The notes under the pieces: model-generated
Told to the model about the DNA's origin: nothing
The model's input: the letters and a program-made list of their open reading frames with translations, nothing else
The model's database searches: none
Assembly (NCBI GenBank): GCA_024711125.1
Contig: JANJTM010000063.1
Coordinates: forward strand, 1-52,644
Source of the DNA: Rhodothermales bacterium
GTDB taxonomy: Bacteria > Bacteroidota > Rhodothermia > Rhodothermales > UBA10348
DNA length: 52,644 nt
Direction: 5' to 3'
Program-made: the position numbers and the translations under genes
In this document: positions 4,135 to 52,460 of the stretch, piece by piece
Position numbering within the stretch: the first letter of the stretch is position 1
Layout of the letters: the number at the start of each line of letters is the position of its first letter

Positions 4135-5160
4135 TCAGAGCGCGCCCGCGTCGACGTCCCTGATGAAGGAGATGAGGCCGGCGGCGTAGGTCGCCTCGTC
4201 GTCCCACATGGCCATGTGGCTGCCGTTCGGGCAGTAGAGATAGCGTCCCTTCGGGAGCTGGGTCGCCATCCACTCCATGTACTTCGGGTCCATCGTGTCG
4301 TGCTCGGCGCCGATGACCAGCGTCGGAACGCCGATGTTGGGCAGATCCGCCGAGCGGTCCCACGTCTCGAGGCGACCGGAGATGCCGAATTCCGACGGGC
4401 CCTGCATGAGCTTGTAGACGTGGTAATTCATGTTCGCGAACGCCCGGTTCACCGCGTCCGGCCATGTCTCGAGCGGCATACGCAAGACGTGTTCGACGTA
4501 GTAGTACCGGTTGAGCAGCTCGGCGTAGCGGGGATTCCCGAAGTCGTTCGCGGCCTCGAGCGCCTGGATTTCGGCCAGCACGTCGGGCGGAAGCTGCGGA
4601 CCCAGTACTTCGGCAGCGTACCGGTCATACTCGGGGCAGCTCGCCATCATGTTCGAGATGATGAGCCCCTTCAGGTGCTGCTGGTACTTCAGGGCGTATT
4701 CGGTAGCGAGGATTCCGCCCCAGGAGTGGCCCAGCAGGTAGAAATTGCTCGAATCCAGGCCAAGCGCCTGTCGTACCTGTTCCACCTCCTCGACGAACCG
4801 CTCGGTGGTCCAGAGGTCGTCGTAGCTCGATTGCAGCGAGTCCGAAAGCGACAGGAAGAGCGAGTCGTTGCCGGCCGTGCCCGTGCGGTGCGAGCCGAGC
4901 TGGTTGTAGTAGTAGTACTCGAAGCCCTCGTTCGGGAAGTGCCGGTCGAGCACTTCGAAGTACTCGCTCGTCGCGGCCGGCCCGCCGTGGAGCAGGAGCA
5001 CCTTGATCTTCGGGTTGTCGCCGACCTTGCGTGTATAGACCTCGAATTCACCCATCGGGGTCGAGATCGGGATCATGCGTTCGGCGGGGGCCACGGGAGC
5101 CGGCGCCGGGGCGCCGCATGCGGCCGCGAACATCGTCACGGCCAGGAGGACGTTCTTCAT
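4135..5160 (-). CDS. proline iminopeptidase-like alpha/beta hydrolase (S33), lipoprotein
   Basis: 341 residues from ATG 5160. The signal ends in a lipobox (FAAAC, Cys15). The S33 features are in order: LLLHGGPA oxyanion region (residues 55-62), GHSWGG nucleophile elbow with Ser136, Asp278 in IGAEHD and His305 in NGSHM. The cap region carries the acidic EYDRYAAEV/NRYYYVEH pattern of proline iminopeptidases, which release N-terminal proline from peptides. Lipidation and the neighbouring M28 peptidase suggest extracytoplasmic peptide trimming. An upstream in-frame ATG (5187) would add nine residues before the signal and is less likely. Confidence 0.85.
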   Translation of the reverse strand: MKNVLLAVTMFAAACGAPAPAPVAPAERMIPISTPMGEFEVYTRKVGDNPKIKVLLLHGGPAATSEYFEVLDRHFPNEGFEYYYYNQLGSHRTGTAGNDSLFLSLSDSLQSSYDDLWTTERFVEEVEQVRQALGLDSSNFYLLGHSWGGILATEYALKYQQHLKGLIISNMMASCPEYDRYAAEVLGPQLPPDVLAEIQALEAANDFGNPRYAELLNRYYYVEHVLRMPLETWPDAVNRAFANMNYHVYKLMQGPSEFGISGRLETWDRSADLPNIGVPTLVIGAEHDTMDPKYMEWMATQLPKGRYLYCPNGSHMAMWDDEATYAAGLISFIRDVDAGAL

Positions 5161-5196
5161 CGCTTCTGGGCTGGGTGGGTGATCCAAGGCGAGGCG

Positions 5197-6747
5197 TCAG
5201 CGCGGGGTGCGCTGCGGCGGCCGGCAGGTAGGCCAGGCGCGCGGCTGTCCGGTGCGCGGATCGGTCGGCAGCAGGCCCTTGACGCGACCGGTCCGCTCCG
5301 GGTCCTCGCTCGCCATGTACGCCAGCATCGCGGCCAGCGTGGCGTTCTCGGCCAGGTCGTCGAACACGATCTTGTCGTACGTGTCGCGGTTCGTATGCCA
5401 CGTGTACTGGCGGTACTCGTCGTAGGGCGACTGCAGGCGGAAGGAGGGCAGGCCCGCGCACACGAAAGACGTATGGTCGCTGCCGGAGTTGGCCTGCGGT
5501 CCGGGCACCTCGATCAGCGTGCGCTCGCGGATCGTGGAGGGCACGGCGGCCATCCATTTCGGAAGAAACTCGGCCGAAGACAGCAGGCCCTGGCCCTCGA
5601 TGCGTTCGAACCGCCATGTGCCGTTGTCCTGGTTGAACGCCACCTGCAGGCCCTCCATGACCTCCGGATGATCGTCGCGGAACGCGGCCGAGCCGATCAG
5701 GCCCATCTCCTCGTTCGCCCAGTGGCCGATGAGGATCGTGCGCTTGGGATTCGGATAGGTGGCCTTCAGGATGCGCGCGGCCTCGAGCATCGTGAGCGAA
5801 CCGGTGCCGTTGTCGAGCGCACCCGTCGCACCGCCCCAGGAATCGAGATGCGCCCCGAGGAGCACGTACTCGTTCGGCTTCTCGGATCCGCGCATCTCGG
5901 CGACGACGTTGAACTGGGGTACGACGCCGAGGTCGCGCGAGGTCGCGTTCACCCGCAGTTTCGGCGCATGCCCGCTCTCGAGCAGCCGGAAGAGCAGCCC
6001 GTAGTCCTCGCACGAGAGGTCGAACGACACCGCCTTCTGCGACTGGGCCGAGAAGATCTTGTTGACGCCCCATCCGCCCGACCACTGCGAGGAGACGAAT
6101 CCGGCGACCCCGACGGAATCCAGTACGGCCGTTCGACGGCGGAAGTCGGCGACGGGTTGCCACCGTTCCTCGACCGCCCGCCGAAGCGCGGCCCGTTCCT
6201 CGTCGATGTGCTGCACGGTCTCCGGCCGGGCATTAGCCTTCAATTCCTGGGGCGCGCGGCACATCGGCTCGGGCGCGGATACCATCACGAATTTTCCGCG
6301 GGCCGATGCGAGCCAGGCCGCCGCGGTCTCCTTCGACAGCCCGGCCGGCGGCATCACGACCTCGGCCTCGACCGGTCCGTCGGTCGCGGCGCTGTACGAC
6401 AGGAGCTCCGCTTCCAGCGACTGCAGGCGCGGCGCCACCAGGTCGACGTGCAGGAATCCGGCGTCCCATCCCCGCCAGGTTCCGACTTCCTCCTTGCGGG
6501 CGGTGACACCCCACGAGGCGTAGGTATCCAGCAGCCACCGCTGGGCCTGGTCGAGCTGCGGTGAACCGGCGAGGCGGGGTCCCACGACGTCGATCAACTG
6601 GTGCCCGAGCGAGCGGGTCTGCGACTCCACGACGCCGGTCTGCCACATGGCCTTGATGACCGGATCGTCGGTGGGGAAGTGCTGGGCCGACACGGGGAGG
6701 GCGGCGCAGGCGAAAAGGACCAGGGCGGTCAGGCGGCGAATGCGCAT
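5197..6747 (-). CDS. M28 family zinc peptidase, secreted
   Basis: 516 residues starting MRIRRLTALVLF, with a signal peptide cut near VSAQ (residue 21). The M28 metal centre is complete in the second half: His300 in GAHLDSW, bridging Asp312 in ALDNGTG, catalytic/metal Glu356-Glu357 in WANEEMG, Asp374 in NQDNGT, and a late His in SGSDHTSF. The region before it (about residues 110-270) is the PA-like inserted domain often seen in secreted M28 aminopeptidases and carboxypeptidases. An ATG 26 codons upstream would put a charged stretch before the signal and is rejected. Neighbouring esterase and S33 genes are 55 and 36 bases away, consistent with one transcript. Confidence 0.88.
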   Translation of the reverse strand: MRIRRLTALVLFACAALPVSAQHFPTDDPVIKAMWQTGVVESQTRSLGHQLIDVVGPRLAGSPQLDQAQRWLLDTYASWGVTARKEEVGTWRGWDAGFLHVDLVAPRLQSLEAELLSYSAATDGPVEAEVVMPPAGLSKETAAAWLASARGKFVMVSAPEPMCRAPQELKANARPETVQHIDEERAALRRAVEERWQPVADFRRRTAVLDSVGVAGFVSSQWSGGWGVNKIFSAQSQKAVSFDLSCEDYGLLFRLLESGHAPKLRVNATSRDLGVVPQFNVVAEMRGSEKPNEYVLLGAHLDSWGGATGALDNGTGSLTMLEAARILKATYPNPKRTILIGHWANEEMGLIGSAAFRDDHPEVMEGLQVAFNQDNGTWRFERIEGQGLLSSAEFLPKWMAAVPSTIRERTLIEVPGPQANSGSDHTSFVCAGLPSFRLQSPYDEYRQYTWHTNRDTYDKIVFDDLAENATLAAMLAYMASEDPERTGRVKGLLPTDPRTGQPRAWPTCRPPQRTPR

Positions 6748-23113: not shown

Positions 23114-24058
23114 CTACTGGAGCGGAATGCCGGCGGCGTTCTTCGCCAACCAGGCGTCGAACGATTGCAGGTCCGGGTTCAGCGAGCGCGCGAACGTGAG
23201 GTCCCGCCGGGCCATGAAGGTGTCGGCGAACTCCGTGTAGAACTGGAACATGTTGCCCAGGTCGTCGGCACCCGGGAATCCGAACGAGCGGTACACGTCG
23301 TGCGGAATCGCCTGGTAGGTCACGGCGCGGCCGAGCGCCGTGGACAGCGAGGCGGCCATTTCGGCCCCGGTGAGGTGTTCGCCGGCGATGCCGACGGTCG
23401 TGCCGATGGTGCGTTCGCCGGCCTTGAAGACCCCGAACGCGCACTTGCCGATATCCTCGGCGGCGATGCCCGAGAGCCTCGCGTCGCCCATCGGAAGCGC
23501 GAACACGAGGTTGCCGTCCGGCCCGGGCTTCGGTCCCATTCCGAACTGCGCGAGGTTCTCCCAGTAGAACGACGTGGCCAGCAGCGTGACCGGGAGCCCC
23601 AGGCTCACGAAGTACTGGTCGGCCGCGCCCTTCTCGTCGAAATGCGGCACCTTGTACTTCTCCATCAGGGTCGGCATGCGCCCGTCCTCGAGGGGGATGT
23701 ACTTGCGCGTGTCCTCGAGGGTCGACCAGACGACGTGCTTCACGTCGGCCTTCTTGGCCGCGTCGGCGAGCACGCGGGCGTGCGCCGCCTCCTTCTCGGG
23801 CGAGAAATGCGCCCAGTAGAACGTGACGCAGAACGCGCCGTGGGCACCCTGGAACGCGCGCTCGATGCTGCTCGGGTCCTCGAGGTCGCCGGCGACGACT
23901 TCGGCGCCCAGTTCGGCAAGAGCGCGCGCCTTCTCCGAATCCACGTCGCGGACGACGGCCCGAGCGCGGAACTCGCCCTCGGCATCGGCCTGGATCGCCC
24001 GTACGAGGCTTCCGCCCTGGGCTCCCGTCGCGCCGACAACGGCAATGATCTTCTTCAT
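23114..24058 (-). CDS. NmrA/HSCARG-like NAD(P)-binding protein
   Basis: 314 residues starting MKKIIAVVGATGAQGGS, the glycine-rich NAD(P) loop of NmrA-type atypical SDRs. Further family features are AVVRDVDSEKARAL after strand 2, GDLEDPSSIERAFQGAHGAFCVT, VVWSTLEDT in the place of the active-site Ser, and KGAADQYFVSLGLPVTLL. NmrA-like proteins sense or reduce with NADPH; many lack the SDR Tyr-Lys pair, as seems to be the case here. The gene is preceded by two operator-like palindromes (24072-24121) directly upstream of its start, so it is probably controlled by a repressor not encoded in this window. Confidence 0.85.
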   Translation of the reverse strand: MKKIIAVVGATGAQGGSLVRAIQADAEGEFRARAVVRDVDSEKARALAELGAEVVAGDLEDPSSIERAFQGAHGAFCVTFYWAHFSPEKEAAHARVLADAAKKADVKHVVWSTLEDTRKYIPLEDGRMPTLMEKYKVPHFDEKGAADQYFVSLGLPVTLLATSFYWENLAQFGMGPKPGPDGNLVFALPMGDARLSGIAAEDIGKCAFGVFKAGERTIGTTVGIAGEHLTGAEMAASLSTALGRAVTYQAIPHDVYRSFGFPGADDLGNMFQFYTEFADTFMARRDLTFARSLNPDLQSFDAWLAKNAAGIPLQ

Positions 24059-24071
24059 GTGCGGCTCCCTG

Positions 24072-24121
24072 ATAGTTGTTTGGACAACAGATGATACAAC
24101 AATAGTTGGGCAAACAACTAT
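24072..24121. promoter_or_regulatory. two operator-like palindromes upstream of the NmrA gene
   Basis: Two sites share the core TAGTTG-N6-CAAC. Site A is 24072-24091 (ATAGTTG-TTTGGA-CAACAGA, half conserved; it also contains GTTGT-TTGG-ACAAC). Site B is 24102-24121 and is a perfect 7-bp palindrome, ATAGTTG-GGCAAA-CAACTAT. Their centres are 30 bases apart, about three helical turns. The outer arms (24072-24082 and 24111-24121) are themselves a perfect 11-bp inverted repeat. The block is AT-rich against its surroundings and lies 14-63 bases before the NmrA start. The likely binder is a dimeric HxlR-, MarR- or TetR-type repressor; which one is not decidable here. Confidence 0.7.
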
Positions 24122-24258
24122 ATACCGTCACGTATCCGCCGCACCTGCGGGTCGGAACACGAATTCCTTCATTTCCTTCGTACAGCACTACGTGGTGGTG
24201 TGTCTGACCGTGATCCTCCGGCTCCGGGTCCGGACGCCATCGCCACCGTACGATCCTG

Positions 24259-25593
24259 ATGCGCCCAGCCACCCTGTTCCCGGCCGTCGCCCTCGTCGGG
24301 CTCCTGATGCATCCGCTTCCGGCGGCGGCGCAGGCGCCGGTGCGCACGTTCATACCCGAGGGGCCGTCGCCGCCCCAGACCTTCGGCGTATCGGCGGCCT
24401 ACGACGGGCAGACGCTGCTCCTGGGCGACGACGCGACCAATGCCGCGGGATTCCAGGGCAGCGGAACGGTGTACGTCTTCGAGCGCCGGGATGGCCTCTG
24501 GCTGAAGCGGGGCACGCTGGTGCCGTCAGACTTCTTCCACGGCATCTCGTACGGTCGAGCGATGGCCGTGCAGGGCGACCGCATGCTGATCGGTGCCCCG
24601 GACGGACGGGGAGCGGTCCCCCAGGGCGGTGCGGCGTACCTGTTCGAGCGCATCGACGGGTTGTGGACCGACCTCGGCAAGATCCTTCCGACCGACATCC
24701 CGACCGGCGAGGGATTCGGCGGATGGCTCGATCTCGACGGCGACATCGCGGCCATCGGCACCGAGCGCGGCGCCGCGTACGTGCTCGAGCGCAGCTCCAC
24801 CGGGGTGTGGAGCATGGAACTGCTCGACGTCGTGCGCGAACCGAACTTCAACTATACCGACGTGTCGGTCTCGGGGCAGCGCATCGCGGTCGGTCGATGG
24901 AACCGCGGCGTGCGCATCTTCCGGAGGGACGGTGCGCGGTGGCTTTTCGAGGGCGAGATCGCCGTGCCCGGATTGATGGGCATCTCCTTCCGCGATCCGT
25001 ACATCCTCGCGACCACGGACCGGAAGGCGATCTTCCTCGAGCGCGGGCACCGATCCTGGCGCACGGCTGCGACGTTCGACGCGCCTGCAGGGGACGAAAC
25101 CAGTTTCGGAACGGGCCGGTCGCTCGACTGGCCGTGGGCGGTCGTCGGCGGCGCCCGGCGGGCGTACCTCTACGTGCACGACGGGCGGACGTGGCGGTTC
25201 GAGCGCACGGTCGTTCCCCCCACGCCGGGGGTGTCGTACTCCGACGGCAACCAGCTGGCCGTGGTCAAGAACGAACTCGTCTACGGCGATCGCGGCGTGC
25301 GCACGGCGTGGCTCTACGACCTCGGGTTCGCCGCCACGGGGGTCGATCTTCCGGGTGAGACCGCGCACTCGGTCGCCCCGAACCCGTTCGCCGCCGAGGC
25401 CCGGGTACTCGGTCGCACCGACGCCCACCGTGCCGAACTGTTCGACGCACTCGGACGCCATGTCGCCGACCTGGAGAGCGACGGAGACGCCTGGCGCATC
25501 GACGGCGTGAACCTCGCCCCCGGCCCGTATTTCGTCGTGGTGACGGGGCCTGGCGGACGGCGCACGGTTCCGCTCGTGCGCGCGGCGCGTTAG
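24259..25593 (+). CDS. FG-GAP/beta-propeller-like secreted protein with type IX sorting domain
   Basis: 444 residues. A signal peptide (residues 1-26, ending PAAAQA) is followed by repeats with the theme G-x-aromatic-GxSVA/DGDRMLIGAPDGRG...AYLFER (about residues 45-350), which resemble integrin-alpha FG-GAP-like propeller blades. The last ~72 residues start VAPNPFAAEARV and continue FDALGRHVADLE, IDGVNLAPGPYFVVV and RTVPLVR. This is the pattern of the type A Por/type IX secretion C-terminal sorting domain, so the mature protein should cross the outer membrane and be attached to the cell surface. No catalytic residues are evident; an adhesion or binding role is a guess. It is transcribed away from the NmrA gene. 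Confidence 0.8.
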   Translation: MRPATLFPAVALVGLLMHPLPAAAQAPVRTFIPEGPSPPQTFGVSAAYDGQTLLLGDDATNAAGFQGSGTVYVFERRDGLWLKRGTLVPSDFFHGISYGRAMAVQGDRMLIGAPDGRGAVPQGGAAYLFERIDGLWTDLGKILPTDIPTGEGFGGWLDLDGDIAAIGTERGAAYVLERSSTGVWSMELLDVVREPNFNYTDVSVSGQRIAVGRWNRGVRIFRRDGARWLFEGEIAVPGLMGISFRDPYILATTDRKAIFLERGHRSWRTAATFDAPAGDETSFGTGRSLDWPWAVVGGARRAYLYVHDGRTWRFERTVVPPTPGVSYSDGNQLAVVKNELVYGDRGVRTAWLYDLGFAATGVDLPGETAHSVAPNPFAAEARVLGRTDAHRAELFDALGRHVADLESDGDAWRIDGVNLAPGPYFVVVTGPGGRRTVPLVRAAR

Positions 25594-25645: not shown

Positions 25646-27302
25646 GATACTTGATCCGGTGGGGCTGGTCGGCGTCGAGGCCGAGGCGCTTCTTCTTGTT
25701 CTCCTCGTACTCCGAGAAGTTGCCGTCGAACCAGTAGACCTGGCTGTCGCCTTCGAACGCCAGGATGTGGGTCGCGACGCGGTCGAGGAACCAGCGGTCG
25801 TGCGAAATGACCACCGCGCACCCGGCAAACGTCTCGAGCGCGTCCTCGAGCGCCCGGATGGTGTTCACGTCGAGGTCGTTCGTCGGCTCGTCGAGCAGGA
25901 GCACGTTGGCGCCTTCCTTGAGCACCTTGGCGAGGTGGACCCGGTTGCGTTCCCCGCCCGAAAGCTCGGTGACCTTCTTCTGCTGGTCGGTACCGCTGAA
26001 ATTGAACATGCCGACGTAGGCCCGCGAATTGACCTCGCGGGTGCCGACCTTCATGATGTCGACGCCGTCCGAGATCTCCTGCCACACCGACTTCGTCGCG
26101 TCGAGCGGACGGTTCTGATCCACGTAGCCCAGCTTGACGGTTTCTCCGACCCTGATCGAGCCGGCGTCGGGCGACTCCTGGCCCGTGATCATGCGGAAGA
26201 GCGTCGTCTTGCCGGCGCCGTTGGGTCCGATGACGCCGATGATCCCGCCCGGAGGCAGCGAGAACGTCATGTCCTCGACGAGCAACCGGTCGCCGTAGCC
26301 CTTGGCCACCCCGGTGCACTCGATCACGTTCTGGCCGAGGCGCGGTCCGTTGGGAATCGGGATTTCGACCGACTCGTCCCGCTTTTCCTGCTGCTGCTCG
26401 AGCATCTGCTCGTAGGCCGCGATACGGGCTTTGCCCTTGGCGTGGCGTCCCTTGGGGGAAAGGCGCACCCACTCGAGTTCGCGGTCGAGCGCCTTCTGGC
26501 GCTTGGAGGCCTGCTTCTCCTCGACGGCAAGGCGGGCCTTCTTCTGCTCGAGCCACGACGTGTAGTTGCCCTCGAACGGGATGCCGGAGCCGCGGTCGAG
26601 TTCCAGGATCCAGCCGGCCACGTTGTCGAGGAAATAGCGATCGTGCGTGACGGCGATGACCGTGCCTTCGTAGCGCGCGAGGTGCTGCTCGAGCCAGGCG
26701 ACCGACTCGGCGTCGAGGTGGTTCGTCGGCTCGTCCAGGAGCAGCACGTCCGGGTTCTGAAGCAGCAGGCGGCACAACGCGACACGGCGCTTCTCGCCTC
26801 CCGAGAGCGGGCCGATCTTCATGTCGGCCGGCGGGCACCGCAAGGCGTCCATCGCCATTTCGAGCTTGCTGTCGATATCCCAGGCGTTCAGGTGCTCGAT
26901 CTTGTCCTGGAGCTTCGCCTGCTTCTCCATGAGCGCGTCGAAGTCGGCGTCGGGATCGCCGAAGGCCTCGTTCACGGCATTGTATTCCGCGATCAGCCCG
27001 ACGGCCTCCGCAGCGCCCTCCTGCACGATCTCGAGGACCGTCTTGTCGGGATCGAGCTGGGGTTCCTGCGGAAGGTATCCGAACGAGACCCCCTTGTTCG
27101 ACTCGATCTTGCCCAGGTAGTCCTGGTCGAGGCCGGCGATGATCTTCAGCAGGGTGGACTTGCCCGATCCGTTCAGGCCCAGCACGCCGATCTTGGCGCC
27201 GTAGTAGAACGAGAGGTAGATGTCCTTCAGGACCTGCTTGTTCGTCGACTTGTAGATCTTGCCGACGCCCAGCATGGAAAAGATGATCTTCTGGTCGCTC
27301 AC
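25626..27302 (-). CDS. ettA: energy-dependent translational throttle protein EttA (ABC-F)
   Basis: 558 residues from a GTG at 27302; E. coli EttA is 555. Two complete ABC domains are seen: Walker A GLNGSGKST and GPNGAGKTT, signature LSGGEKRR and LSGGERNR, Walker B plus LLLDEPTNHLD and LLLDEPTNDLD. Between them a charged inter-domain linker holds KQASKRQKALDRELEW. The arm-like insertion in domain 1 (about 95-135) separates EttA from other ABC-F proteins. EttA binds the ribosomal E site and gates early elongation according to ATP/ADP ratio. The GTG start matches the family N-terminus (SDQKIIFSMLGVGKIY); an ATG 12 codons earlier is possible but adds unrelated residues. Confidence 0.93.
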   Translation of the reverse strand: MSDQKIIFSMLGVGKIYKSTNKQVLKDIYLSFYYGAKIGVLGLNGSGKSTLLKIIAGLDQDYLGKIESNKGVSFGYLPQEPQLDPDKTVLEIVQEGAAEAVGLIAEYNAVNEAFGDPDADFDALMEKQAKLQDKIEHLNAWDIDSKLEMAMDALRCPPADMKIGPLSGGEKRRVALCRLLLQNPDVLLLDEPTNHLDAESVAWLEQHLARYEGTVIAVTHDRYFLDNVAGWILELDRGSGIPFEGNYTSWLEQKKARLAVEEKQASKRQKALDRELEWVRLSPKGRHAKGKARIAAYEQMLEQQQEKRDESVEIPIPNGPRLGQNVIECTGVAKGYGDRLLVEDMTFSLPPGGIIGVIGPNGAGKTTLFRMITGQESPDAGSIRVGETVKLGYVDQNRPLDATKSVWQEISDGVDIMKVGTREVNSRAYVGMFNFSGTDQQKKVTELSGGERNRVHLAKVLKEGANVLLLDEPTNDLDVNTIRALEDALETFAGCAVVISHDRWFLDRVATHILAFEGDSQVYWFDGNFSEYEENKKKRLGLDADQPHRIKYRPMKRA

Positions 27303-49087: not shown

Positions 49088-50278
49088 TCAGCGGGGCTGC
49101 ACGGGCTGCACCCAGGCCTTCCCGGTCTCGCCCTCGCGATACGGGTTCGCCATCGGGCGATCGCTGATCACGGTCGCCCGCACGAACAGCTCGTCGCCGC
49201 GCAGCCGGTACGACGGCTCGTCTCCGGCGACGCGGGCGAACACGGTCGAGACCTCGACCGAATCGGCTCCGGCGCGCCGCGCGCCCACGAACACCGTCTC
49301 GTACGCTACCCCCGGGCGCTCTTCGATATCGAGCGACAGCGTGCGCCCGTCGAAGCGCACGTCCTCCAGCTCGACCCCGCTCGACCCATAGAAATCGCCC
49401 GCCTCGAGCGCCGCGATGAGCGCGGCGGGCGTCAGCTCGGCCGCGCGCACCCGCACCCATCCGCGCCCCGGATTGGCCTTCCCTACCGCCATCTCGTGGT
49501 AGTTGTGCGAATCGTCGGTCGCGAGCCCCAGGAGCAGCGGCAGCCCGCGCGCCAGGCGTTCCGCATTCACCCGGTCCCACATCGCCTCGGTGCCCGGCCG
49601 CGTATCGTCGCCCTCGTTGTGCACGGCCGGATGCCCGTTGTACACCTCGAAAAACCGCTCTCCGACCAGCGGAACGAGGTCCTCCGGCGAAATCGCCCAC
49701 CCAAAGTTCGGATGGTTGATGTGCGGAATCATGGGCTGTCCGGTCGTCTCGCGCTGGTGCAGGACGACGTCGATCGTCTTCTGCAGCACGTCGGTCACGC
49801 TCGTCCCCGTCTGCGGCTCGATGAAGTGCACGAGGTTCGTCGCGTTCACGTGCAGCGGACGGCGCTCGAAGCTGCTCGTGATCTCCTCGCCCTTGATCAC
49901 GAGGAAGCGCCCCGGCCGCTCGAACAGCGCCCGGTACTCGTCGTACGTGCGCAGGCGCGCCTCGAGCGTGTCGCCCCGCTGCCTTGAGGTCGCGCCGAAC
50001 CGGCCCTGGAGGACGTCGTAGGCAGGTCGCCGGGCCGCGTCGATCCGCACCCACTTCTCGCCGTCGGCGATCGTGTTGTGGTCACTGAGGGCCACGAAAT
50101 CGTAATCCCGGTCGGCATACCAGGCGACGACCGACTCGGGGAAGTCGTCCCCGTCGCTCCAGAGCGAATGCGTGTGCAGGTTGCCCTTGTACCACGGCTG
50201 CGTCGAGGCGCAGCCGGCGAGGAGGAGGGCGAGGAGGAGAGGGCGCATCCTTCCGAGGTTCATGCTTCCGAGGCTCAT
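49088..50278 (-). CDS. PHP-domain phosphoesterase-like lipoprotein
   Basis: 396 residues if started at ATG 50278; ATGs at 50263 and 50248 follow in a 15-base tandem repeat and the last gives the cleanest signal peptide. A lipobox (LLLAGC, Cys23 in the long form) is present. The PHP metal site begins with NLHTHSLWSDG (His35, His37), then ALSDHNT, the Glu of IKGEEITS, HINHPNFGW and a late ATDDSHNY. A small beta domain ends the protein. PHP proteins are tri-zinc phosphoesterases; exported versions are of unknown substrate. The first ATG overlaps the vapC stop (ATGA), tying it to the toxin-antitoxin mRNA. Confidence 0.82.
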   Translation of the reverse strand: MSLGSMNLGRMRPLLLALLLAGCASTQPWYKGNLHTHSLWSDGDDFPESVVAWYADRDYDFVALSDHNTIADGEKWVRIDAARRPAYDVLQGRFGATSRQRGDTLEARLRTYDEYRALFERPGRFLVIKGEEITSSFERRPLHVNATNLVHFIEPQTGTSVTDVLQKTIDVVLHQRETTGQPMIPHINHPNFGWAISPEDLVPLVGERFFEVYNGHPAVHNEGDDTRPGTEAMWDRVNAERLARGLPLLLGLATDDSHNYHEMAVGKANPGRGWVRVRAAELTPAALIAALEAGDFYGSSGVELEDVRFDGRTLSLDIEERPGVAYETVFVGARRAGADSVEVSTVFARVAGDEPSYRLRGDELFVRATVISDRPMANPYREGETGKAWVQPVQPR

Positions 50279-50286
50279 GCTTCCAG
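50246..50286. repeat. 15-bp tandem repeat at the vapC/PHP junction
   Basis: Units CATCCTTCCGAGGTT (50246-50260), CATGCTTCCGAGGCT (50261-50275) and the partial CATGCTTCCAG (50276-50286) are near-identical. On the minus strand each begins a GGAAG-ATG-like unit, so three in-frame ATGs for the PHP gene arise from one duplicated stop-start junction of vapC. Length change by slippage would only add or remove five residues. Confidence 0.7.
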
Positions 50287-50676
50287 CCAGTTTTCGAGGC
50301 GAAGACCCCTCACCCGGGCGAATTCCCGCCGGTTGTTGGTGACCAGGGTCAGTCCACGCCGCACGGCCTGTGCGGCTATCAGCGTATCCAACGGTCCGAT
50401 CGGCGTGGCTGCCGATTCGAGCGACGCCCGAACATCGGCATACGCGACCGCATCGTCAGAGTCGAACGGTACGATCTGGATCGGTGCAAGAAAACGCTCG
50501 ACGCGCGCCAGGGTCTGTCCGGGAGCTGAACTCTTTGCCGCGCCGGTGCGCAGCTCAGCCTCCGTCACCACGCTCACGGCCACGTCCGCCCGGCGGTGCG
50601 CGAGCAGTGCGTCGATCACATGGCGATGTCCCTTCAGCGCAAAGATGCAGGTATCGGTGTCGAGCAGGAGTTTCAT
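50275..50676 (-). CDS. vapC: VapC-type PIN-domain toxin ribonuclease
   Basis: 133 residues. The PIN acidic set is present: Asp6 in LLLDTDTC, Glu39/Glu41 in VTEAEL, Asp97 in GPLDTLIAAQA, and Asn114-Asn115 in TNNRREF at the fourth position. VapC toxins cleave tRNA or rRNA to arrest growth when the antitoxin is lost. The start overlaps the vapB stop (ATGA) and the stop overlaps the next gene's first ATG, a continuous coupling through three genes. Confidence 0.9.
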   Translation of the reverse strand: MKLLLDTDTCIFALKGHRHVIDALLAHRRADVAVSVVTEAELRTGAAKSSAPGQTLARVERFLAPIQIVPFDSDDAVAYADVRASLESAATPIGPLDTLIAAQAVRRGLTLVTNNRREFARVRGLRLENWLEA

Positions 50677-50909
50677 TCCAGGGCCTCGCGCCGATCGGTC
50701 TCGCCCTGTTCGGGTCGGCTAAAGTCGCTCGGCACGCCGGTAAATGACTCCACGTACCCTTTCGGCCAGTCATCGACCGGCTCGAGAATGATGGTGTTGC
50801 CTTCGCGATGTACCAGCACTTCGTCGCCCTCGAAACGGAACTCCTTCGGGAGGCGGACCGCCTGGCTGCGGCCTGTCCAGAAGACGCGCGCTCGCTTGGA
50901 TGTGCCCAT
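50673..50909 (-). CDS. vapB: VapB antitoxin, AbrB/SpoVT fold
   Basis: 78 residues. The N-terminal swapped-hairpin DNA-binding domain reads RARVFWTGRSQAVRLPKEFRF followed by DEVLVHREGNTIILEP; the C-terminal 30 residues (DDWPKGYVESFTGVPSDFSRP) form the typical toxin-wrapping tail. It neutralises VapC and should repress its own promoter, where a palindrome lies 25-40 bases upstream (50934-50949). Confidence 0.9.
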   Translation of the reverse strand: MGTSKRARVFWTGRSQAVRLPKEFRFEGDEVLVHREGNTIILEPVDDWPKGYVESFTGVPSDFSRPEQGETDRREALE

Positions 50910-50933
50910 GCCTTATTCAAGATGGTATACGGC

Positions 50934-50949
50934 AATGATAGGTATCATT
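50934..50949. promoter_or_regulatory. palindromic operator candidate of vapBC
   Basis: AATGATA-GG-TATCATT is a perfect 7-bp inverted repeat in the 53-base divergent gap between vapB and the epimerase-like frame's first ATG. GTATAC (50925-50930) is a second short palindrome beside it. Both are placed where VapB, or the VapBC complex, would autoregulate; the site also lies 14 bases before the first possible ATG of the divergent gene, so it could affect both. Confidence 0.55.
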
Positions 50950-51028
50950 ACGTGAGGGAGCAATGCGTGTATCTGTTTTGCCTAAGGAGCCGTATCGTGC
51001 CCGCATTGCAACGAGACCAGCCCAACCG

Positions 51029-52165
51029 ATGTCGACTCGCCGCCAGTTCCTCTCCACCGGACTCGCAGCCGCACCTGTTCTCGCCCTCGGCGCCCTTCCC
51101 ACCCGCACCCGGGCAGTCTCACCGCAGGCTCAGGCCCGCGATGGCGCCCGAAGCATCCTCATCCTCGGCGGCACCGGCTTCCTCGGCCCCCACCTCGTCA
51201 AGAACGCCCTCGACCGCGGGCACACGGTCAGCGTCTTCAACCGCGGACGCACCGTGCCGGCACTCTTCCCGGAGTACTTCGACCGGGTTGAGCACCTCGA
51301 AGGCGATCGGAACGGCGACCTCGCCTCGCTTGTCGGCCGGTCCTGGGACGCCGTCATCGACAATTCCGGCCAGCAGGCCGCGTGGACGCGCGATTCCGCC
51401 CAGCTCCTGAAAGACCGGGTGGACCTCTACGTCTACACCTCCTCAACCGGCGTCTACTACCCCTACTACGGCTCGAACCTCACCGAGGACACGCCGCTCG
51501 TGCTCGAGGCCGGGCCGGACGCCAACGAGGACCTGGCGTACGGCGTCATGAAGGCGCAGTCGGAACTCGAGGCCCGGCGGGCGTTCGGCGACGACCGGAC
51601 GATCGTGGTGCGCCCCACCTACATCATCGGCCCCGGCGACCGCTCGAACCGCTTTCCGTACTGGCCGGCGCGGCTCGAGCGGGGCGGAGAAGTGCTGGTT
51701 CCGGGCAGGCCCGACGACCCGGTCCAGTGGATCGACGCGCGCGACCTGACCGAGTGGATGATCCGCCTCGTCGAGAACCGCACGGTCGGAACGTTCAATG
51801 CCGTGGCCCCGACATGGGAGATGGGCATGCGCGCGTTCGTGCACGGCGTGCACGCGGCGACCACCGCGCCGTGCACTTTCGTCCAGGTCGATGACAACGA
51901 CTTTCTGCTGGAGCACGGCGTGCCCTACGTCGTGCCGTGGATCATGCCGACGCCCGACAACTACGGCTCGGCGCGGGTGAACTTCGACCGCGCGGTCGCG
52001 GCCGGGCTCAGGATGCGGCCGCTCGCCGTAACCGCGCTCGACACCATCGCGTGGTGGCACTCGGATTCCGTGCCCGAAGCGCGGCGGCAGCGGCTCGTCG
52101 AGGCGCCTGATGGTTTGATGGCGCGGGAGGCCGGGATCCTCGCGGCGTGGAGGGCGCGGGGGTAG
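51029..52165 (+). CDS. Tat-exported NAD-dependent epimerase/dehydratase-like protein
   Basis: 378 residues from ATG 51029; an in-frame ATG at 50963 with GAGGGAG before it would add 22 residues ahead of the signal and cannot be excluded. The start MSTRRQFLSTGLAAAP is a twin-arginine signal, so the protein is exported folded. The Rossmann motif LILGGTGFLGPHLVK follows at about 47-61, then DLASLVGRSWDAVIDNSG, VYTSSTGVYYP (the Ser/Tyr region, with YGVMKAQSE holding Tyr-x-x-x-Lys), VVRPTYIIGPGDRSNRFPYWPARL and VQWIDARDLTEWMI. Related Tat-dependent epimerases occur in several phyla; substrate unknown. Confidence 0.85.
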   Translation: MSTRRQFLSTGLAAAPVLALGALPTRTRAVSPQAQARDGARSILILGGTGFLGPHLVKNALDRGHTVSVFNRGRTVPALFPEYFDRVEHLEGDRNGDLASLVGRSWDAVIDNSGQQAAWTRDSAQLLKDRVDLYVYTSSTGVYYPYYGSNLTEDTPLVLEAGPDANEDLAYGVMKAQSELEARRAFGDDRTIVVRPTYIIGPGDRSNRFPYWPARLERGGEVLVPGRPDDPVQWIDARDLTEWMIRLVENRTVGTFNAVAPTWEMGMRAFVHGVHAATTAPCTFVQVDDNDFLLEHGVPYVVPWIMPTPDNYGSARVNFDRAVAAGLRMRPLAVTALDTIAWWHSDSVPEARRQRLVEAPDGLMAREAGILAAWRARG

Positions 52166-52187: not shown

Positions 52188-52242
52188 GGCGGAGCGGGCG
52201 CGGGGTTTCTAGTCGCGGTCGGCGGAGCGGGCGCGGGGTTTC
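52188..52242. repeat. 33-bp tandem repeat, two copies
   Basis: A 22-base core starting GGCGGAGCGGGCGC and ending GGTTTC is found at 52188-52209 and, unchanged, at 52221-52242, a period of 33 bases, in the non-coding region after the epimerase-like gene. The reverse frame over it is open (Arg/Pro-rich) but has no protein-like features. Confidence 0.6.
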
Positions 52243-52348
52243 CAGCCGCGGTGGGGCCGGCGCGCAGGGAAGGGGCCAACGAGGCCGCGGGGGTGGGACG
52301 GCGAGCCCGTGGTCGGCTGCAATCTGGAAAAAAGCCCGCAAATTCCAC

Positions 52349-52364
52349 GTTGAAACGTTTCAAC
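52349..52364. promoter_or_regulatory. LacI-type operator-like palindrome
   Basis: GTTGAAACGTTTCAAC is a perfect 16-bp palindrome with a central CG step (AAACGTTT core), the hallmark of LacI/GalR-family operators. No LacI-family gene is in the window and the target gene would lie beyond the right end, or the site is part of the repeat-rich island. Confidence 0.4.
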
Positions 52365-52420
52365 CAGCGCAAAAACGTCGAAAAACGCCCCGATTTCCAC
52401 GTTTTTGCCCCCGAAATGGC

Positions 52421-52448
52421 GCGAAAACATGGCATTTCGCCCGTTTTT
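52421..52448 (+). terminator. weak intrinsic-terminator candidate
   Basis: GCGAAA-ACATGGCA-TTTCGC (52421-52440) is a 6-bp stem followed by CCG and five Ts (52444-52448) on the plus strand. It lies about 255 bases after the epimerase-like stop, far for a terminator of that gene, so it may serve another transcript. Confidence 0.3.
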
Positions 52449-52460
52449 ACACATCCCGGC

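Follow-up and report, generated by a model that had tools for sequence, protein, structure and literature searches.

The stretch of DNA analysed here, referred to as the window, is the whole of contig C80 (52,644 bases) in a genome of 3.79 Mb assembled in 81 contigs, and 93% of it was called coding by a gene caller based on codon usage. Its last called gene encodes a member of the NAD-dependent epimerase/dehydratase family (Table 1), the product of which has its nearest titled relative (62% identical) in a Gemmatimonadota bin, while four other titled matches, 35-43% identical, come from other phyla. The end of this gene is separated from the start of the element described below by 157 bases; the GC-rich stretch between them holds two 23-base direct repeats, 33 bases apart and 87% identical (52200-52255). 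On the minus strand at 50275-50909 lie two small overlapping open reading frames, which by eye we take to resemble a PIN-type toxin and an AbrB-like antitoxin. An AT-rich island with an abrupt change of composition had been reported after the last gene in an earlier note on this DNA, and GC content is indeed 49% at 52310-52449 compared with 68.4% for the window. AT-richness alone is not unique to this place, as 100-base windows below 52% GC also occur at approximately 24021-24200, 27191-27300 and 50881-51020.

The perfect 16-mer palindrome, the inverted repeats and the direct repeat that the earlier note had listed in the island were all recovered (inverted repeats I1, I3, I11 and I16; Table 1). 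The window contains four perfect 16-mer palindromes, so one alone is not beyond chance, and the eight inverted 7-mer pairs of the island were equalled in 47 of 2000 dinucleotide shuffles. The self-match of the island at 52 bp (0.568) was reached in none of 2000 shuffles. The island is real and not a product of chance.

Table 1 Features of the island and its neighbouring gene, in window coordinates.
Feature	Position	Strand	Evidence or remark
Neighbouring gene, NAD-dependent epimerase/dehydratase family	51029..52165	+	Pfam PF01370, E 4.3e-15; last called gene
Dispersed element, palindrome-variant copy	52322..52455	+	R1 match; 10.4-bp power 26.4
Left end module CTGGAA...TTCCACG (TGGAA/TTCCA half-sites)	52324..52349	+	Ungapped alignment with other copies
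52-bp direct repeat, first copy (D2, spacing 52)	52329..52351	+	Partner at 52381-52403
16-bp perfect palindrome GTTGAAACGTTTCAAC	52349..52364	.	Occupies the place of the first CCCC-AAAA-GGGG module of canonical copies
Central module, inverted half-sites ACGTCGAAAAACG / CGATTTCCACGTTTTTG	52371..52407	.	I3, 93% complementary
Right module CCCCCGAAATGGCG...GTTTTTACA, end of array	52408..52451	+	Alignment with other copies

The unexpected part of the element is a helical phasing of A/T and G/C, which the earlier note did not mention and which is far stronger than the repeats listed there. A/T was coded as 1 and G/C as 0, and a sliding 130-bp scan was normalised such that random sequence scores near 1. 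The A+T periodicity at 10.4 bp had a power of 26.4 at 52321-52450, a value reached by none of 2000 shuffles (shuffle maximum, 12.95), and the island is the sole place in the window above 9 at this period. The AT-rich stretch at 24021-24200 (45-51% GC per 100 bases) showed no 10.4-bp phasing above 9.

A genome-dispersed repeat element had been among the candidates of the earlier note, and this proposal was borne out in the organism's own genome. A nucleotide search with the island returned six further places, and a search with one of these six copies gave 54 pieces at E<=1. R1, a sequence-only model built from 32 canonical and five palindrome-variant copies, matched 126 pieces at E<=1, which were merged by hand to 58 distinct places at E<=0.01, 43 of them strong (E<=3e-18). 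The single genomic copy that the earlier note had named as pointing to chance was therefore not what the own-genome search found. The copy in the window, itself among the 37 rows from which R1 was built, scored 69.9 bits (E 3.2e-19) on the plus strand and 46.9 bits on the minus strand, matching both because the element is nearly self-complementary. The island is almost certainly one copy of a helically phased dispersed repeat. When the element core was written as a degenerate pattern and searched for exactly, genome_contigs (from which the own genome was possibly left out) gave no match, such that the words of the element look lineage-specific. Elements lie within approximately 0.7 kb of a contig end in C12, C23, C33 (both ends), C55, C56, C71, C78 and C80, suggesting that the repeat breaks the assembly.

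The element is about 135 bp long and is organised around half-sites (TCGAYRTWTT and relatives) of alternating orientation, spaced 28 and 24 bases to give a unit of 52 bp, or five helical turns. Once orientation was fixed, the consensus read TGG(A/G)AT..GGCC at the left end, CGACGTATT-gg-CCCC-AAAA-cGGg-gAATATGTCGA-cttt-c-GGCC-c-TTTt-TCGAcgTtTT-a-CCCC-AAAA-cGGGC-AATACaTCGA in the core, and GGCC followed by the right end TTTTCCA after it, with 11 columns invariant among 37 copies. The spacing of the core is strict: an ungapped template was in register with 37 of 40 loci, with almost no core indels, the visible exceptions being a left-end indel of one base and a single gap in row L055. The statistics on the 32 canonical copies omit L057, which holds no element under the template, and L016 and L026, in which the template is off register; these last two are palindrome variants, and the remaining five of that type were kept apart from the canonical set. 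Pairwise identity among the 32 copies averages 63% and does not exceed 77%. The 14-mer core of the palindrome occurs at seven genomic places (six exact and one with a mismatch), all within elements, and the palindrome that the earlier note called LacI-like is a module of this seven-copy subfamily.

The phasing is a property of the whole family. Mean A+T power at 10.4 bp was 5.25 in the 32 canonical copies versus 0.25 in their shuffles, and 4.11 versus 0.28 in five palindrome variants, with 10.40 bp as the best period of the family. When 40 rows were scanned individually, the 39 real copies, that of the window included, lay at 13.3-31.3 and the false row L057 at 5.1. When 400 kb taken from three large contigs were scanned, three peaks exceeded 12, all of them family members, and seven control periods gave none; nothing outside the family was as strongly phased in those 400 kb, a sample that was not blind, as copies were already known in C81 and the element-bearing 20 kb of C49 lay outside it. 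In 67 of the 97 core columns, the A/T fraction is either 85% or more or 15% or less. Exchanges within a class (A<->T or G<->C) account for 0.462 of the differences between pairs of copies compared with 0.333 expected from composition, in a comparison whose pairs are not independent, and the A/T or G/C class is conserved in the linkers too, where bases are not. The polarised columns and the excess of within-class exchanges suggest that block type (A/T versus G/C) is kept, seemingly more than base identity. In five palindrome variants, including the copy in the window, the replaced stretch is off the canonical phase (r 0.03-0.44). A second 52-bp array in the same genome (L050 1421-1560; G000:C40 about 24820-24959) carries another word, TTCAACTCC..AAGTTGAA, with a CCCC-AAAA-GGGG linker, and its further matches in 782 kb of own-genome sequence were only weak (E 0.002 and weaker). 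Despite its 52-bp repeat, its 17.3-bp component (15.8) is stronger than that at 10.4 bp (4.4).

The elements are intergenic. We mapped 61 places, comprising 57 of the 58 (C1:9526 was left out), the second array at L050 and three R1 places with weaker matches (E above 0.01), and in none of them did the overlap with a called gene exceed 30 bases, the offset having been corrected in this count for L068 and L076, where the matches stand at contig starts. The 36 strong copies (power >=12) with both neighbours known fell at 14 convergent, 17 tandem and five divergent junctions. Convergent junctions were thus enriched relative to sampled junctions (14/36 versus 40/310; Fisher p 2.7e-4), and divergent ones were not depleted (5/36 versus 37/310 of all sampled junctions, p 0.79). 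Sampled junctions with gaps of at least 150 bases (n=57) included two convergent and 22 divergent ones, a comparison that is not clean because the element itself lengthens the gap. Of the 79 gene ends flanking strong copies, 50 are three-prime and 29 five-prime, and the regulator-dense promoter that the earlier note had considered is not supported for the family by these ends. No clear strand preference relative to tandem genes was found in the 17 cases read by hand (10 same, seven opposite). tRNA genes, six in total, were seen near elements in five of 43 loci scanned (L058, L063, L080, L055 and L112).

A further reading is that one sequence-specific regulator binds the elements as arrays of paired operators, its half-site being TCGAYRTWTT, with a LacI-type site in the variant. 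The strong conservation of the half-sites, with their invariant columns and alternating orientation, agrees with this, as does the core AAACGTTT, which we take to resemble LacI/PurR operators. We regard it as quite improbable, since the elements show no upstream preference (29 of 79 flanking ends are 5'), the A/T and G/C classes are kept even in linkers without base conservation, and the palindrome was not found outside arrays. A free-standing palindrome upstream of genes, a trait of LacI-family operators, was not found in the own genome at up to one mismatch, and a LacI-controlled promoter was rejected, all seven palindromes being within arrays. A search for parS at up to two mismatches gave no match in the window and 400 kb of the genome.

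The inverted repeats of the aligned copies, together with the excess of 3' over 5' gene ends nearby, could also point to a structured RNA, as the earlier note had suggested, or to a transcription terminator at gene 3' ends. This is highly improbable. Covariation across the inverted arms was not found in the 32 canonical copies, in which, for the candidate stems tested, Watson-Crick and G-U pairs occurred as expected from independent columns; in the clearest stem case (columns 85-118), G-C was found in 20 and G-G in 11 of 32. RNAalifold gave six pairs over 143 columns with a covariation term of -0.13, and high mutual-information scores at columns 13/17/21 are an effect of the one-base indel at the left end and not of pairing. 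A search of the window against Rfam returned no match, and RNA structure was rejected. Taken with the lack of a clear strand bias, these results indicate that the symmetry belongs to double-stranded DNA.

Among 27 genomes of the family, own included, R1 had matches at E<=0.01 in six. Three of these (G011, G012 and G024) have one weak match each, with a highest locus power of 7.0-9.7, and were taken as chance. The two remaining relatives, G009 and G018, belong to another genus of the family, g10. Their arrays are built from different words, such as AGGTT..TGGAACCT and TACATGGAATG..TTCCACCTAG; they match themselves best at offsets of 51-52 bp, and those with a power above 12 have periods of 10.3-10.6 bp. 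R1 itself carries the phasing, so the arrays found in relatives are not an unbiased sample of it. G009 gave 10 matches; at five of the loci (L095, L098, L103, L104 and L105) the power stays below 10 throughout, and L093 and L101 are two matches to one array. The third g10 genome, G014 (88% complete), had no R1 match. Wider searches, own genome included, gave matches in four of 114 genomes of the order (E<=1e-4) and, with stricter filters, in two of 394 genomes of the phylum (E<=1e-5). Nine relatives, G009 not among them, were sampled for periodicity (88-122 kb each) and showed no 52-bp array among the listed peaks, although at the density of the own genome such samples would miss the family about one fifth to one third of the time; G034 and G010 had one peak above 12 each (13.6 and 12.2). 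No description of such a repeat was found in searches of open-licence papers.

In G018, the array forms the right end of a repeat of approximately 290-330 bp present at five places (L089, L094, L096, L097 and L100), mostly 92-98% identical with one pair at 87%, which is probably a small mobile element and looks to have moved recently. G043, from another family, holds three islands (L220, L221 and L222) that are 99-100% identical over 132-157 bases and show 10.3-10.4-bp phasing (power 19.8-26.4) without the 52-bp unit. These islands apparently stand at contig ends, and one lies close to an open frame with a match to part of a DNA methylase family. Both sets of copies, as well as the several own-genome elements at contig ends, are consistent with a short mobile repeat, MITE-like or BIME-like, that has no cellular role and whose phasing would come from the origin of the 52-bp unit or the needs of a transposase. 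We consider this improbable for the family at large. Near-identical, recent-looking copies, a trait of MITEs, were found in G018 and G043 only; the 32 own-genome copies are old by their identities, and yet core spacing, A/T versus G/C class and the excess of within-class exchanges are kept in them, all of which decay should erase. The Y1 transposase (PF01797), the only transposase searched for, was not found in the genome (99.3% complete), five of 14 control genomes being positive, and a RAYT-driven REP was rejected as Y1_Tnp is absent from the genome.

We infer that the elements act by shape, as double-stranded DNA. With about five A/T-rich and five G/C-rich blocks in each 52-bp unit, A/T steps would recur every 10.4 bp on the same face of the helix, and DNA of this kind is expected to be curved or easily wrapped round a protein core, with the A/T minor grooves facing inward as they do in nucleosomes and gyrase complexes. 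By analogy with known wrapped sites, we tentatively propose, at somewhat less than an even chance, that the element is a DNA-wrapping site with gyrase as the likeliest protein. The C-terminal pinwheels of GyrA would wrap the arms, and the central GGCC would serve as the 4-bp gate segment. Recruited between genes, and between convergent ones especially, gyrase may remove transcription-driven supercoils or fix the borders of topological domains, a role parallel to proposals made for BIME-2 elements in E. coli and for the strong gyrase site of phage Mu. Two proteins of the genome match GyrA C-terminal repeats, one with six repeats and the other with three, and were taken as GyrA and ParC, respectively.

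The gyrase motif mapped in E. coli by Topo-seq has a length of 130 bp and is symmetric about the cut, with two 47-bp flanks that are GC-periodic at 10.75 bp and nucleosome-like, and gyrase cuts are enriched in BIME-2 elements (PMC6379681). The motif is taken up again in a later preprint (PMC12393610), and another report gives GC preferences at 10-11 bp for gyrases of three species (PMC12324340). In the wrapped right arm of the strong site of Mu, A/T minor grooves face the protein (PMC11626157). In our 10.4-bp scan of Mu, the right-arm region of the strong site stood at the 99.7th percentile with a power of 6.8, and three places unconnected with the known site scored higher (9.5, 8.4 and 8.1). 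In pSC101, the stretch 4680-5272, which we take to hold its gyrase site, had a power of 6.0 (99.6th percentile), with four places above it. Given these higher-scoring places, the periodicity yardstick is a weak one. Between sucB and sucC of E. coli, where a BIME-2 site lies, there was no 10.4-bp signal (2.7, 95th percentile). With GGCC placed as the stagger, only +1G/+4C and +6T of the preferences in the three-species report fit, whereas -2A, -4G and +8C do not (PMC12324340).

What stands against gyrase is, above all, the period of 10.40 instead of 10.75 bp, the phase that runs unbroken across the centre, where the E. coli motif has a distinct core of 36 bp, and the behaviour of the family A/T-G/C profile as a filter on Mu, in which the cut site had an r of 0.187 (96.5th percentile) and was not a top site. 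The phase break of the palindrome variants, the stronger 17.3-bp component of the second array and the divergent junctions, which are no rarer at elements, are further points against it. The 10.40-bp period and the unbroken phase would suit bending by any core, and a second possibility is that a different nucleoid protein, be it of HU/IHF type, a bacterial histone or a lineage-specific protein, wraps or bends the phased DNA in place of gyrase, in chromosome packing or at domain borders. The half-site words that differ between genera while the geometry stays, as if protein and word had changed together, agree with such a protein. We judge it somewhat unlikely; the histone-fold families PF00808 and PF09123, the only two models by which bacterial histones were covered, have no match in the genome, and histone-fold proteins were rejected.

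Compared with known systems, the element shares with the E. coli gyrase motif and the Mu site a symmetric length of about 130 bp, a helically periodic alternation of A/T and G/C and a nucleosome-like preference (PMC6379681, PMC11626157). It differs in its period and in being multi-copy and repeat-built, and gyrase binding to it is predicted; its profile did not single out the Mu cut site, and its phasing, 13-31 in 39 copies, is far stronger than at the Mu and pSC101 sites. Like BIME-2 and REP sequences, it is dispersed, intergenic, palindromic and modular, but it has a 52-bp helical unit, no stem covariation and no Y1 transposase in its genome, and the BIME-2 at sucB-sucC lacks its 10.4-bp signal. 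BOX and ERIC are modular intergenic repeats, and the element resembles them and MITEs in being short, non-coding, multi-copy and modular, the copies in G018 moreover looking mobile. It differs from all of these in the spacing kept in old copies. Phased A-tracts of bacterial genomes have a periodicity near the helical repeat, which in E. coli is concentrated in intergenic DNA (PMC516772); they form a diffuse genome-wide statistic, whereas the periodicity described here is concentrated in a discrete repeat.

Returning to the wrapping site, a broader version of this proposal, which we hold to be doubtful, is that a bacterial lineage carries dozens of nucleosome-like positioning sequences on its chromosomes, selected for helical A/T-G/C phase and not for bases, such that genera may swap words but retain the 52-bp unit of five turns, and that gyrase or another wrapping protein docks on them at fixed points and sets the borders of supercoiling domains. 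Gyrase sites in bacteria are degenerate and difficult to recognise from sequence. With a phasing that is, by our measure, roughly two- to fourfold that of the Mu and pSC101 yardsticks, the family would offer a test of whether DNA shape alone can recruit a wrapping enzyme, and the detector, a 130-bp window scored for 10.4-bp power, is simple and usable on any GC-rich genome. Conservation of block type above base identity would make the family a natural experiment on indirect readout, and it would also test whether chromosomes carry fixed topological borders.
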